From a virus, in IMG/VR virus record IMGVR_UViG_3300047546_000751, positions 1 to 24,316 of that record: a stretch of 24,316 nucleotides of DNA, one strand, 5' to 3'. The stretch's first letter is position 1; each line of letters starts with the position of its first letter. A model generated the notes under the pieces. It was not told the origin of the DNA. It saw only the letters and a program-made list of their open reading frames with translations, and made no database searches. A program made the translations under genes and the position numbers. This document shows, in pieces, positions 3,092 through 20,017 of the stretch.

Positions 3092-3937
3092 ATGAGCTTC
3101 GTAGCAAATCCATTTTTACTTCCTCACGTTAATCAATTAACTGTCACTACAGTTGGTATAAGCACCTGGACAGTTCCAGTTGGTATTACAAGTATTTCTA
3201 TTGTTTGTGTCGGCGGCGGTGGTGGTGGGGCCCGTGGTGCAAACGGAACAGAAAACTCTGGCGGCGGCGGCGGAGGTCTTCGTTATATTAACCAAACCCC
3301 TGTTACACCTGGAGAACAATTAACATTACGAATCGGAATTGGTGGTACGGGAGCAACTGCTAATGCTGGTAGTGGTGGTGATGGTGGAAATTCATCTGTT
3401 TATAGGGGAAATACTGTTATAATATTTGCTGGCGGCGGAAGAGGTTCTGTTTATAGTGTTGGTGGTGGAACAGCTGGTGTTGGCGGAACTGGAAGTATTG
3501 TGGGTGGCAACGTTGGTGGTGGCGACGGCGGATGGGGAGGAACAAGTAATACCACAAATAATGGAGGAGGTGGAGGTGGAGGTGGTTATGTTGGTGCAGG
3601 AGGATCTGCAAGTGGGGATGTTGGATTAACTACTCCAGCTGCTGGAGCAGGCGGCGGTGGTGGTGGTGGAACTCGTAGCGCAACTGCTGCCCTTGGCGGT
3701 GGTGGTGTTGGTATTGCTACAGGACAGGGAATTAATGGATCTGCTGGCGGTGGTGGTGGATCTGCTGGAAATAGCAATAGCACCACAAATGGCGGACTTT
3801 ATGGCGGCGGTGGAGCAGGAAATGATGCTGCAAACGCAGGCAATGGAGCATCTGGTGTAATCAAAATCATATGGGCAAGTGCAAATGCAGGAATTGCTAG
3901 GACATATCCAACTACAAATGCTGGTGATTTACCGTAA
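3092..3937 (+). CDS. Glycine-rich adhesin-like virion protein
   Basis: The protein has 281 residues. A short N-terminal region (LTVTTVGISTWTVPVGITSISIVCV) leads into long runs of glycine (GGGGGG repeatedly, residues about 40-250) broken by polar segments with N, S, T and A. The C-terminal motif GASGVIKIIW is typical of phage glycine-rich domain proteins. Such domains can fold as polyglycine-II helix bundles, as in the distal receptor-binding adhesin (gp38) of T-even relatives; that fold is inferred here. The ATG lies 5 nt after the stop of the modular fibre gene, so the two are probably one unit. No Shine-Dalgarno sequence is evident. Confidence 0.65.
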   Translation: MSFVANPFLLPHVNQLTVTTVGISTWTVPVGITSISIVCVGGGGGGARGANGTENSGGGGGGLRYINQTPVTPGEQLTLRIGIGGTGATANAGSGGDGGNSSVYRGNTVIIFAGGGRGSVYSVGGGTAGVGGTGSIVGGNVGGGDGGWGGTSNTTNNGGGGGGGGYVGAGGSASGDVGLTTPAAGAGGGGGGGTRSATAALGGGGVGIATGQGINGSAGGGGGSAGNSNSTTNGGLYGGGGAGNDAANAGNGASGVIKIIWASANAGIARTYPTTNAGDLP

Positions 3938-14946: not shown

Positions 14947-15777
14947 ATGCCCGCACCAAAACCGGTAATTAAGACTAACTCTCAGATTAAGTCTCTCCTA
15001 CTTCAACCATCCCTAACGTCACACTTTCAGGCATGGTTGGAACCGCCACCGGATCTGCGTCAGTTCTATGATGCCGAGCATCTTTCTTTATCATGTCATG
15101 AGGCAGCCCTTCCTGGTTCTGCAATCATGACTGCAGAATTGAATGATGATTATACCGGAGTCACAGAAAGACTTGGTTATCGCAGGCAGCATGATGAAAG
15201 AGCAACCTTTACATTCTATGTTGATCTTGGTGGATCCACAAAGGGATCATATAGTGTAATTTGGTTTTTTGAGAAGTGGATTCAATATGCTATGAATGAT
15301 GACGATCAAAGAAAAGATAAGAATCGTTTCTATCGAGTAAGATATTCTGATCGATACAGATCTCCGGAAATTTATATCAATAAGTTTGAACGCGAAATGC
15401 AAGGAACATATCTTGCATATACATTCCTGCAAGCATATCCAGTTGAAATGATTACCATGCCTGTCAAGTATACTACATCAGAATTGATGATGTGTACGGT
15501 GTCATTTACATATAACAGATTTATTGTTGAGAGATTGGGATATGGAAGTGGAAATAACAATCCGCGATTTGCTGGTAATCCTGCGCAAACTCCAGTCAAT
15601 CAGAATAGAAATTCACCAAGTCCTCAAAATCCAAATAATAGACCCGTTAATGGTGCAGTGTATAATGATTTCTTGAATGGAGATACTCAAAGAAATGGTA
15701 GAGCAATTGGCAATCCGGCCCTTGATCAATATGGCACAAGAGATCAACTTGGCAGATCACAGGGTCTATTGGGGTGA
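14947..15777 (+). CDS. Tail-tube-fold (gp19-like) baseplate/tube protein
   Basis: The protein has 276 residues. The core (about 40-200) has the pattern of the T4 gp19 tail-tube family: LSLSCHEAALPGS, TGVTERLGYRR, ATFTFYVDLG, WFFEKWIQY, IYINKFEREMQGTYLAYTFL, AYPVEMITMP and CTVSFTYNRF. It is longer than gp19 (about 163 residues) because of an Asn/Pro/Gln-rich disordered tail (about 205-276). Such longer gp19-like proteins in cyanophages are probably hub- or tube-associated baseplate parts (compare gp54/gp48) rather than the main tube protein. The start is 33 nt from the divergent gp4 start. No clear plus-strand late promoter is seen in that small gap. Confidence 0.75.
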   Translation: MPAPKPVIKTNSQIKSLLLQPSLTSHFQAWLEPPPDLRQFYDAEHLSLSCHEAALPGSAIMTAELNDDYTGVTERLGYRRQHDERATFTFYVDLGGSTKGSYSVIWFFEKWIQYAMNDDDQRKDKNRFYRVRYSDRYRSPEIYINKFEREMQGTYLAYTFLQAYPVEMITMPVKYTTSELMMCTVSFTYNRFIVERLGYGSGNNNPRFAGNPAQTPVNQNRNSPSPQNPNNRPVNGAVYNDFLNGDTQRNGRAIGNPALDQYGTRDQLGRSQGLLG

Positions 15778-15808: not shown

Positions 15809-16528
15809 ATGCCATTACCAAAGATTTCTACTCCGACTTATGAATTGGAACTGCCATCAACGGGAAAAAAGATAGAGTATAGACCATTTTTGGTCAGGGA
15901 AGAAAAGCTCCTTGTGTTGGCATTAGAAAGTCAGGATACTAAACAAATTTCCACAGCAATTAAAAACGTAATCAAGAATTGTATTGAGACAAAAGGAATT
16001 AAGGTAGAAACTCTTCCCACCTTTGATATTGAATACATCTTCTTGAACATCAGAGGAAAGTCTGTTGGAGAGGAGATTGAAGTGAATATCATTTGTCCCG
16101 ATGATGAAATAACTACTGTCTTAACTAAGATCAGTGTTGATGATATTCATGTCCAAAAGAATCCTGAGCACAATAAAAAAATTAATCTTGATGATTCGTT
16201 AATGATGGAGATGAAATATCCATCATTGGATCAATTTGTCAAGAGTAATTTTGATCTTGAATCTGACAATAACATGGAGCAATCGTTTGATTTGATTGCA
16301 TCATGTATCGATAAAATTTATAATGAAGAGGAAGTCTGGGTTGCTTCTGATGTAACCAAAAAGGAACTTAGTGATTTCCTTGATCAGATGAATACAACTC
16401 AATTCAAACAGATTGAAAAATTCTTTGAAACGATGCCTAAACTATCACATACTGTGACGGTTAAGAATCCAAACACTGGAGTTGAGAGTGAGGTTGTTCT
16501 AGAGGGACTATCAAGTTTTTTCGCTTAG
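15809..16528 (+). CDS. 26: Baseplate hub assembly protein gp26 (tail chaperone-like)
   Basis: The protein has 239 residues. The N-terminus (PLPKISTPTYELELPSTGKK, then IEYRPFLVREEKLLVLALES) is the typical start of the T4 gp26-type baseplate family. It is followed by helical regions (ISTAIKNVIKNCI, NNMEQSFDLIASCIDKIYN) and the end LEGLSSFFA. It is needed for hub assembly in T4. Its position directly before gp51 and two tape-measure-like genes matches lambda gpG, and the last codons contain a T_TTT_TTC heptamer that could shift ribosomes into gp51. It lies 31 nt after the preceding gene with a late promoter between. Confidence 0.82.
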   Translation: MPLPKISTPTYELELPSTGKKIEYRPFLVREEKLLVLALESQDTKQISTAIKNVIKNCIETKGIKVETLPTFDIEYIFLNIRGKSVGEEIEVNIICPDDEITTVLTKISVDDIHVQKNPEHNKKINLDDSLMMEMKYPSLDQFVKSNFDLESDNNMEQSFDLIASCIDKIYNEEEVWVASDVTKKELSDFLDQMNTTQFKQIEKFFETMPKLSHTVTVKNPNTGVESEVVLEGLSSFFA

Positions 16529-16543
16529 CCATGTCCCACATGG
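16516..16543 (+). promoter_or_regulatory. Candidate -1 programmed ribosomal frameshift signal
   Basis: The heptamer T_TTT_TTC (16516-16522) is in phase with gp26 codons TTT-TTC. A 6-nt spacer (16523-16528, including the TAG stop) leads to a perfect 6-bp hairpin, CCATGT (16529-16534), loop CCC, ACATGG (16538-16543). After a -1 slip, translation continues CGC-TTA-GCC-ATG directly into gp51. The hairpin also buries the gp51 ATG. Confidence 0.6.
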
Positions 16544-16713
16544 ATCTTGAAAACTATTTCGTATTAAATTTCTCTTTAATGCAGTATCATAAATATTCAT
16601 TAACAGAGATAGAAAATATGATTCCTTGGGAGAGAGATGTCTATGTGGGTATGTTGAAGAATCATCTTGAAGAAGAACGATTAAAAGCAGAGGCTCAGAA
16701 AAATGCCCGTTGA
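16531..16713 (+). CDS. 51: Baseplate hub assembly catalyst gp51
   Basis: The protein has 60 residues, MSHMDLENYFVLNFSLMQYH, then KYSLTEIENMIPWERDVYVG and a charged helix (LKNHLEEERLKAEAQKNAR). The sequence LxxxEx(M/I)xPWERDxY matches the C-terminal conserved part of gp51-type and G/T-type tail chaperones. It is much shorter than T4 gp51 (about 249). It could be made alone from the ATG at 16531 (or 16540) or as a C-terminal extension of gp26 by -1 frameshift, since its frame is open back through CGC-TTA-GCC to the slippery site. It overlaps the tape-measure gene by 11 nt. Confidence 0.75.
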   Translation: MSHMDLENYFVLNFSLMQYHKYSLTEIENMIPWERDVYVGMLKNHLEEERLKAEAQKNAR

Positions 16714-19700
16714 TTCTTTGGGAAAACTTTCCCTCTATACTGGCACTAAACAGACTGATTCAATATCAGAAGAAGATATTAACGATATTATCCTCCGACT
16801 CCTTGGGTTGGAGGATACTTTTGATATTGACTATGATACATATAAGACCCTGCTAAAACAAAGATTAATTGAGAATCAGATTCTTACCAGTAAGGGAAGG
16901 GCGATGCCTTCCGAAGAAGCTGAACTTCTTACCGGAGAATTAAAGAGAATCAAAGGAAAGGTTGGCAGATTTACAATCAAGAAGAAGAAGATTGGTGTAG
17001 ATGCGTTTAAGAAATCTACTGCTGGAGCAACTGATTCTGGAGTAAAGAATAATGTAAAGACTGCTGGATTTTTATTTGGAAAACCTGGCAACGGGCCACG
17101 TAAAACAGAATCTCCAGCGAGTAGTGTTAGACCAGTAGATGATAAAGAAGAAAAAAAGGGTGCTGATAGGAGCACACGATTCGTAGACTCTTTAAAAAAT
17201 ATTGGGGAATCCCTACAAAATATCCTTAACACTTTAAGGAATCAGTCCAAATCAGAAAAGAAGGAAGAGGAAAAGAATAGACGGGAAAAAGTAAGATCAA
17301 AAAGATCAAAGGAAGAAGAAAAATTAGAGAAGAAAAGAGCAAAAGAATTAAAAAAATTGCAGGAACAATTAATTGCTCCAATTAAAGGTCCCCTTGAAAG
17401 AATTTGGAATTTCATTAAGTATACTTTCCTTGGTGCAGCATTCAATTCATTAATGAAGTGGATAAGTGATCCAAAAAATGCCAAGAAAGTTGAGGTTCTT
17501 GGGCGTTTACTTAAGACATTCTGGCCAGCTCTATTAGCAGCATTCTTGTTGTTCATGACGCCCTTTGGTGGGTTTGTTCGCAATACTATTAAATTAGTGG
17601 GATTCTTTGCCAAAGGTATGGCAAAGATTATGCCTATGCTTCTGTCGGCATTAAGGAATTTAAAGCTCACTGCTGGAGGAAGATTAACTGGTCGCGGAAA
17701 GGTTGCAGCAGCTGCTGGTCTTTTTCTGGCGGGTGCTGCTATTCCTGCTCTATTTCCAGGAACAGTTGATGCTCAAGAAAGAAAAACCGAAAGTGCTCCC
17801 GGATCAAAAGAGGAAAAGATAAAGAAACTGCAAGCAGAAAAATCACAGGTTGGATTATTTGATCCGTGGGGCAAAAAAGCAGAGATTGATGAGCAAATTT
17901 ATCGCCTCAGAACCGGAGAAACTAAGAGATATGCTGGCGGCGGCCGAATCTTTAGTGGATTTGTTGGTCATGATACGGGAACTTCTGTAACCGGAGCGGG
18001 ACAAGATACTCAATTGATGCCAGTAGAAGGTGGTGGCAGTGCTGTATTGGCAAAGGGCGAATTGGTTCTTAATGAAGAGCAGCAACAAAGACTTGCTAAT
18101 GAGACTGGTGTAGATCCAGCAAAATTTGCAGTTGGAGGTGGAGGGTCAGATGTTGCCGGTCAACTTAGACCAGTTGGTGCTCAAGATCCTCTAGGTGCAA
18201 TTAGGTCTCAAACTCAAGCATTCTCTCAGGGTGGCATAATTGGTTCAGGAAAAATTGGATCAACCGGTTCACAATCTTCAACGGCAAATTCCACCAACAT
18301 TTGGGACTACTATAGTGAACTCATAAAGTCTGGTAAGTTTAAAGACATTTTTACACAAAAACCAGAACCAGAAAAGGAAAAGAAAGAAGGTGATTATAAT
18401 AGTGTATGGAATGACTTTGTAAAAAATGCATTCCTAAATCATGGATTGGGAGGCACACAAACCTCAGCACCGAAGACTACTGTTAGTGGACCATCAAATG
18501 CTGCCAATACATCCACAAGTGGCAAGATCGATCTTGCTATGGGCATGTGGAGAAAGTATAGAGATCAAAAGGATTATAAGAACGCTGATGCAATAGGCAA
18601 GAATATTTGGAATCTTAAGTATGGTGCTCAGCATAAAGCATCTCAAACACCAAATCCCCTAATGAAGGGTTTTGTTGCAGCACCTACAACACCATCTCTG
18701 GCGCCAGTATCAGTACCTGCCCCAGCAGCACCTAAAGTAGAAGGATATGCTGGAGGAGGAAGAGTTGCACCTGCCCAATTAGGTGCAATTGTTGGTGGGG
18801 CGAATGCGAAAAATATTAATTCTGTATATAAGCAATCACTACCACTTCTTTTCCAAATGCTTCAGGGTGGAAGATGGAAGGATAAGGGGTGGGGAAGTAA
18901 GGAGTTTATGCAAATGCTTACTGCACGAATGTTGCAGGAAAGTCATAACTTCACAAAAACCAGAGAACTTGCTGACGTATCACCATCAGATCCAAAGGGC
19001 AAGCCGGGTTGGAATTACTTTAATCGTATTCGCGGATATGGAAATAATCCCGCATTAGGTAATAAAGGAGATGCTGATGGTTATAATTTCATTGGAAGAG
19101 GTCCAGTTCAACTTACTGGAAGAGCAAATTATGAGATGTTTAATAAATGGTTGCAGAGAAATGGATATAAGGGATATGACGTTGTAAAAAATCCCGGATT
19201 GATTGAAAAGGACCCCAAGGTTCAAGCACTTTCAGTCCTTTCATATTTGGAAAATCGCCAAAAGTTATTCCCGGATGCTAATCTGGCACAGATGGCATCT
19301 AGTGGAAATCTTAAAGATTTTGTTTACGCTATTAATGGTGGACATCATGGATTGGATGTGACGCAAAAAAATCTTCAGGCAATCAAAACTCATAATGTGG
19401 ATTTCAATAAACCACCAAGTATTGTTGCAACACAACCACAAGCACCAAAGAGAAATTGGGTTCAGAGATTATTGAATAGACCTGCCGCACCCGCAGCTAA
19501 ACCTGCTACAAAACCATCTGCACCCGCAGCAGCACCACAAAGATCCTGGTATGATCCACGTGGTTGGGTCGGTAAGAAAGATGGTGGTTCTATGATCACC
19601 GAAAATACTGGCATGAATATTCCTGGAGCGACTGCAGATAGGCAATTGGTTGCCCTTCAACCAGGAGAAAACCATTATATCTTCACTAAGAGATTTGTTG

Positions 19701-20017
19701 ATCGTGGGGGTCTTGATGCTGTTGATAATTTGGTTGCTCAGTTCGATCCACATTCTGCTCCAGCAAAAGATGGTCGTCGTTCAAACTTTGCCCAAATTAG
19801 CAATCAGGTAAATAGAGATGTGCCTGGACCACCAGTAAAGAATTCTGGAAATAGCATGTCACTTCCAGCTATTAGACAATCCGCTATGTCTGGACCACTT
19901 GGACAAATGGAAGCAATGGATACTACTGGTTCTGAGGTTCCAATATTCTCTGCAGCTGCTGGTTCTGGAATACCAGAAAGAAGTAGACTTTGTGAAATCT
20001 ACGGGATTGTGGGGTAA
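16703..20017 (+). CDS. Tape-measure-like tail protein with GH19 chitinase/lysozyme domain
   Basis: The protein has 1104 residues. In order: a helical N-terminus; a Lys/Glu coiled coil (about 181-225); IWNFIKYTFLGAAFNSL and hydrophobic helices (about 230-340, clearest at 272-292); tape-measure-type motifs YAGGGRIF and GGGSAVLAKGELVLNEEQ (about 410-460); a GH19-like domain (about 690-895) with the catalytic Glu candidate E746 in LQESHNF and the signature GRGPVQLTG (798-806); a Pro/Ala linker; and the motif WYDPRGWVGK, followed by QLVALQPGENHYIFTKRFVD. GH19 enzymes cut chitin or peptidoglycan glycan strands. Position after gp26/gp51, length, hydrophobic helices and hydrolase domain support a tape measure that helps DNA pass the cell wall. 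A fibre-like or internal virion protein is the alternative. Confidence 0.72.
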   Translation: MPVDSLGKLSLYTGTKQTDSISEEDINDIILRLLGLEDTFDIDYDTYKTLLKQRLIENQILTSKGRAMPSEEAELLTGELKRIKGKVGRFTIKKKKIGVDAFKKSTAGATDSGVKNNVKTAGFLFGKPGNGPRKTESPASSVRPVDDKEEKKGADRSTRFVDSLKNIGESLQNILNTLRNQSKSEKKEEEKNRREKVRSKRSKEEEKLEKKRAKELKKLQEQLIAPIKGPLERIWNFIKYTFLGAAFNSLMKWISDPKNAKKVEVLGRLLKTFWPALLAAFLLFMTPFGGFVRNTIKLVGFFAKGMAKIMPMLLSALRNLKLTAGGRLTGRGKVAAAAGLFLAGAAIPALFPGTVDAQERKTESAPGSKEEKIKKLQAEKSQVGLFDPWGKKAEIDEQIYRLRTGETKRYAGGGRIFSGFVGHDTGTSVTGAGQDTQLMPVEGGGSAVLAKGELVLNEEQQQRLANETGVDPAKFAVGGGGSDVAGQLRPVGAQDPLGAIRSQTQAFSQGGIIGSGKIGSTGSQSSTANSTNIWDYYSELIKSGKFKDIFTQKPEPEKEKKEGDYNSVWNDFVKNAFLNHGLGGTQTSAPKTTVSGPSNAANTSTSGKIDLAMGMWRKYRDQKDYKNADAIGKNIWNLKYGAQHKASQTPNPLMKGFVAAPTTPSLAPVSVPAPAAPKVEGYAGGGRVAPAQLGAIVGGANAKNINSVYKQSLPLLFQMLQGGRWKDKGWGSKEFMQMLTARMLQESHNFTKTRELADVSPSDPKGKPGWNYFNRIRGYGNNPALGNKGDADGYNFIGRGPVQLTGRANYEMFNKWLQRNGYKGYDVVKNPGLIEKDPKVQALSVLSYLENRQKLFPDANLAQMASSGNLKDFVYAINGGHHGLDVTQKNLQAIKTHNVDFNKPPSIVATQPQAPKRNWVQRLLNRPAAPAAKPATKPSAPAAAPQRSWYDPRGWVGKKDGGSMITENTGMNIPGATADRQLVALQPGENHYIFTKRFVDRGGLDAVDNLVAQFDPHSAPAKDGRRSNFAQISNQVNRDVPGPPVKNSGNSMSLPAIRQSAMSGPLGQMEAMDTTGSEVPIFSAAAGSGIPERSRLCEIYGIVG

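Follow-up and report, generated by a model that had tools for sequence, protein, structure and literature searches.

The slippery heptamer behind the tail assembly chaperones G and GT of phage lambda is G_GGA_AAG. In this system, the first open reading frame (ORF) yields a short chaperone, a −1 shift close to the end of this ORF yields a long one, and the tape measure gene follows directly downstream; a 2016 review described G–T frameshifting as a widely conserved trait of long-tailed phages, with T4 as the exception (PMC5009743). A −1 shift has also been described for the chaperone gene of phage Adele (Vandenendeviridae/Andersonviridae), at a conserved polyT motif (GTTTTT) and with a −1 frame that is open in all genomes (PMC12846349). 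For T4-like phages, the passages of two later papers that cite Vladimirov, Gautam and Davidson 2022 (Virology 566:9–15) credit that study with the identification of tail assembly chaperones (PMC10885494, PMC12846349); one of these papers adds that in some T4-like phages a separate short gene exists alongside a fused long one (PMC10885494), and the other that slippery sequences of the polyT type have been recognised in T4-like genes for the N-terminal part of the tail assembly chaperone (TAC-N) (PMC12846349). Here, we analysed a 24,316-nucleotide (nt) stretch of viral DNA (IMG/VR record IMGVR_UViG_3300047546_000751, positions 1 to 24,316; hereafter the window), in which a programmed −1 ribosomal frameshift at T_TTT_TTC very probably yields a long tail chaperone fused from gp26 and gp51. 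The locus resembles the described systems in arrangement. Lambda uses a different heptamer and no sequence similarity to it is claimed, and Adele belongs to other phage families with another motif. The 2022 study reportedly found frameshifting to be conserved in several T4-like groups, with T4 itself using separate genes 26 and 51. A sequence-only reading of the window had considered such a link between T4-like and lambda-like tail assembly to be possibly undescribed; going by the two citing papers, T4-like phages with an arrangement of this kind had been described by 2022, and the novelty in this respect is low. What we document here is a Shine–Dalgarno-like element, the missing start codons of gp51 and a contrast in the copy number of PF12322 genes.

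The gp26 ORF (15809..16528, on the plus strand like all features below) encodes a putative short, zero-frame chaperone (TAC-N) of 239 amino acids, which matched PF12322 T4_baseplate (E 1.1e-75, 254.6 bits with a curated cut-off of 24.5) and phrog_150 (E 3.9e-81). Its 3′ end reads AGT TTT TTC GCT TAG. The heptamer T_TTT_TTC (16516..16522) is thus in the gp26 frame and in the correct phase, as the sequence-only reading had proposed, but a single codon, rather than five, separates it from the stop codon TAG (16526..16528). The ORF annotated as gp51 in relatives (16531..16713; phrog_634, E 6.1e-27) is in the −1 frame relative to gp26 and, also as proposed, stays open back to the slip point through CGC TTA GCC ATG. 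Including its stop codon, the −1 segment (R-L-A-gp51) spans 16522..16713 and corresponds to the predicted C-terminal domain (TAC-C) of the fused long form. The 60 amino acids of gp51 additionally showed a weak match to the C-terminus of phrog_150 (E 0.0015, positions 245–280), an early sign that both parts may be joined in one protein in some members of the family. In the mechanism we propose, most ribosomes would terminate at the TAG at 16526 and release the short chaperone, and a minority would step back one base on T_TTT_TTC, helped by pairing of an upstream AGAGGGA with 16S ribosomal RNA (rRNA) and by local RNA folding immediately 3′ of the heptamer. Slipped ribosomes would then read the −1 frame, giving a 301-residue fusion (...LSSFF-RLAMSHMDLENYF...; TAC-NC). 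The analogy with lambda G/GT drawn in the earlier reading was upheld and suggests that the N-terminal part may coat the tape measure and the added C-terminal domain may recruit tail-tube subunits. We infer that it is the ribosome that slips, that it does so in a minority of cases, that the fused product is translated and that both products act as chaperones.

Established directly were the slip site, its phase and conservation, the openness of the −1 frame, the homology with T4 gp26 and gp51, and the gene copy numbers. Relatives were collected as viral contigs by several queries and as named phages by annotation, and removal of duplicates left 162 distinct relatives with readable junctions. In 158 of these, including Aeromonas phages CC2 and phiAS5, Vibrio phage 6E35.1a and Stenotrophomonas phage Moby, the distance from the end of TTTTTTC to the stop codon of gp26 was exactly 3 nt. 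These 158 relatives, on which the comparisons below are based unless another number is given, formed 22 clusters at 70% and 87 clusters at 85% amino acid identity, so the conservation of the heptamer does not stem from one recent lineage. Both TTT and TTC were fixed (158/158 each) and were the sole single-codon columns among 104 conserved degenerate columns; the ten other conserved Phe columns of gp26 carried the alternative codon at 5–48%. The base preceding TTT TTC was T in all 158 relatives, even though the codon that it completes encodes Ser, Ala, Asp, Gly or Asn, for which T-ending codons make up 36–85% elsewhere in the gp26 gene. The heptamer is conserved beyond coding need, and the comparative evidence for the fusion of gp26 to gp51, as proposed by the earlier reading, is very strong. 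Rarity of the motif is not an argument, because the window contains 14 copies of TTTTTTC against an expectation of 13.8 ± 3.6.

The remaining junctions were of different kinds. S-CRM01 has an in-phase T_TTT_TTC directly before a TAA and hence a different spacing, and Rhizobium phage RHph_I1_18 (around 3195–3235) has T_TTT_TTA in phase; gp26 of this phage terminates some ten codons later, and its −1 frame is open and colinear with the fusion. For L104, the stop codon reached by our script was ∼100 bases beyond that of its near relative Moby, and the frame differs there, and K364 is without the heptamer. For the proteins of Vibrio 6E35.1a and K364, a search of viral contigs found no relatives. 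Members of the Ackermannviridae (GEC_vB_GOT, CBA120) and the Vibrio phages K397 and K364 had been candidate heptamer carriers and were rejected for want of a canonical slip site. In all four, the gp51 domain is nonetheless in the −1 frame after gp26, and the kutterviruses GEC_vB_GOT and CBA120 do not have an ATG near the gp26/gp51 junction either. A mid-gene stop in the gp26 frame of another relative (L055, near 3414) is probably a sequencing error.

Beyond the slip site, the −1 frame ran for 46–79 codons to its first stop in 154 of the 158 relatives; in nearly all relatives, its open stretch measured about 57–70 codons, and shorter −1 frames (14–51 codons) occurred in a few. An ATG at or close to the annotated start of gp51 is present in the window and in most relatives, but many have lost it: no ATG, GTG or TTG was present within the first nine −1 codons in 31 of the 162 relatives, where the peptide around FFR[IVL]AL is conserved all the same. 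Frameshifting is therefore the plausible route to the gp51 domain. Consistent with what would be expected if no start codon is present, gp51 is not annotated at all in ACG-2014b, ACG-2014j and S-SSM6b, and only a downstream fragment of it is annotated in ACG-2014a. The gp51 start sites deposited for many cyanophages are probably wrong. Alternatively, gp51 could be made as a separate protein by reinitiation or translational coupling at the ATG at 16531, in which case the heptamer would be incidental. The ATG in the window and most relatives fits this scenario, as does its position two bases after the gp26 stop, since such proximity of stop and start is typical of coupled genes. We nevertheless regard it as very unlikely, given the relatives in which the peptide is kept without any start codon, the lack of a Shine–Dalgarno sequence immediately before the ATG (predicted pairing with the 16S rRNA 3′ end was weak there across the 158 relatives), and the fixed Phe codons and fixed preceding T, which it leaves unexplained.

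The earlier reading had overlooked a third part of the putative signal, a Shine–Dalgarno-like stretch upstream of the heptamer. In the window, it reads AGAGGGA (16501..16507), its GGG being separated from the heptamer by 9 nt, and relatives carry GAGGG or AAGGG about 10 nt upstream. Predicted pairing with the 16S rRNA 3′ end was strongest in 10-nt windows starting 16–18 nt before the heptamer, where it reached a mean of −6.7 kcal/mol, compared to −5.2 kcal/mol under synonymous recoding. The element overlaps a conserved Glu-Gly pair encoded mostly by GAG followed by GGN or by GAA followed by GGG: GGG was found after GAA in 37 of 53 cases and after GAG in only 6 of 97 (Fisher p 2e-16, a value that ignores relatedness). 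Both GAG and GGG were also commoner at this pair than elsewhere in the gp26 gene. We conclude that this is a Shine–Dalgarno-like element and putative stimulator of the shift, apparently maintained by compensating codon choice.

Directly downstream of the heptamer, RNA folding was locally enhanced in relatives, with a mean z of −2.17 at +13 versus an average of about −0.4 elsewhere, and the pairings involved were lineage-specific. Together with the phased Shine–Dalgarno-like element, such folding is a feature of ribosomal shifting, which bears on a further explanation, namely that RNA polymerase, and not the ribosome, changes the frame by slipping on the T6 run and inserting one base. This would also need an invariant T6 run, and the sequence by itself is compatible with it. 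Six T are, however, short for polymerase slippage, and no relative has TTT in place of TTC, a change that would extend the run; we consider this explanation slightly less probable still than a separately translated gp51. That a common, AT-rich motif merely coincides with a chance −1 overlap, as its chance-level frequency in the window might suggest, is in effect refuted by its conservation across the 158 relatives and their clusters.

Several observations weigh against a frameshifted chaperone at this locus. The earlier reading had placed a perfect CCATGT/ACATGG hairpin after a spacer of exactly 6 nt. The spacer (16523–16528) was confirmed, and CCATGT (16529–16534) and ACATGG (16538–16543) are indeed perfect complements around a CCC loop, with the gp51 ATG inside the hairpin (16529..16543). 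However, its six pairs form fully in only 3 of the 158 relatives. We therefore rejected it as a conserved element and retain it as a possible downstream stimulator in the window, in a region that folds better than others through differing pairings; of the signal first proposed, and of the junction alignment suggested to check it, the heptamer with its synonymous constraint held and the exact hairpin did not. RNAalifold returned an empty or nearly empty consensus structure downstream of the heptamer, with nothing above block-shuffled controls. The downstream 50-nt fold of the window itself (z −0.94) was not unusual either. Furthermore, the window retains the gp51 ATG, so that separate translation of gp51 is possible there. 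Regarding function, an AlphaFold model of gp26 (predicted local distance difference test score, pLDDT, 87.7) gave no strong match in a search of the PDB, and the match to the HK97 tail assembly chaperone (2ob9_B) was weak, although its probability of 0.80 was the highest among the matches listed (E 1.1, 61 columns). We take the resemblance of the modelled gp26 to this chaperone as a lead, not as proof. In a viral structure library, close matches of the model were mostly baseplate hub proteins of T4-like phages.

The comparison with T4 changed the assignment of the gene products. The earlier reading had equated the 60-amino-acid gp51 with T4-type gp51. Yet it is the fusion as a whole to which T4 gp51 (249 amino acids) corresponds, and T4 gp26 corresponds to the short product. 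Both T4 proteins matched PF12322 and phrog_150, and the C-terminus of T4 gp51 also matched phrog_634. A profile alignment (hhalign) of the cyanophage fusion with T4 gp51 spanned the junction and covered 241 columns (prob 98.6, E 7.5e-16), and the −1 segment alone aligned with the T4 gp51 C-terminus (hhalign E 4.6e-7). In the same type of alignment, the end of T4 gp26 (...GLKEFFELL) falls where the short product ends (...GLSSFFA). In T4, genes 26 and 51 are separate and divergently oriented, and no frameshift is needed: T4 would make the same two products from two paralogous genes, 26 for the short and 51 for the long one. A count of PF12322 genes gave one in each of 13 non-T4-type records tested versus two in T4-type genomes (three pieces in one). 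In one T4-type genome (L192; G006:C1:125062-125666), gene 51 is broken into two parts that lie in different frames, through either a sequencing error or another recoding event. The simplest reading of the copy numbers is that T4 gets by duplication what other phages would make by frameshift. We lean, somewhat, towards a broader model in which the fusion is the only form of the gp51 domain across cyanophages and separate gp51 annotations are artefacts, the signal has three parts (an invariant heptamer, fast-changing local hairpins and a Shine–Dalgarno-like element preserved through codon compensation), and T4 genes 26 and 51 arose once by a duplication that replaced an ancestral frameshift. The locus offers a natural comparison between two ways of obtaining two products, frameshifting and gene duplication.

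The source of the window is an uncultured T4-like cyanophage whose tail assembly chaperones, of the G/GT type, would be encoded at this locus. The two overlapping reading frames are located between a gene for a tail tube-type protein (14947..15777; PF23849, E 1.8e-12; phrog_45 tail tube, E 2.6e-21) and a 1104-amino-acid ORF (16703..20017; phrog_35029, E 3.6e-43), a candidate tape measure gene with a lytic-type domain. In Rhizobium phage RHph_I1_18, a gene that lies downstream of gp26 and gp51 carries the annotation tape measure. The lytic-type domain of the candidate tape measure is of the endolysin/GH19 type (phrog_181, endolysin-type) and lies at about amino acids 738–920.
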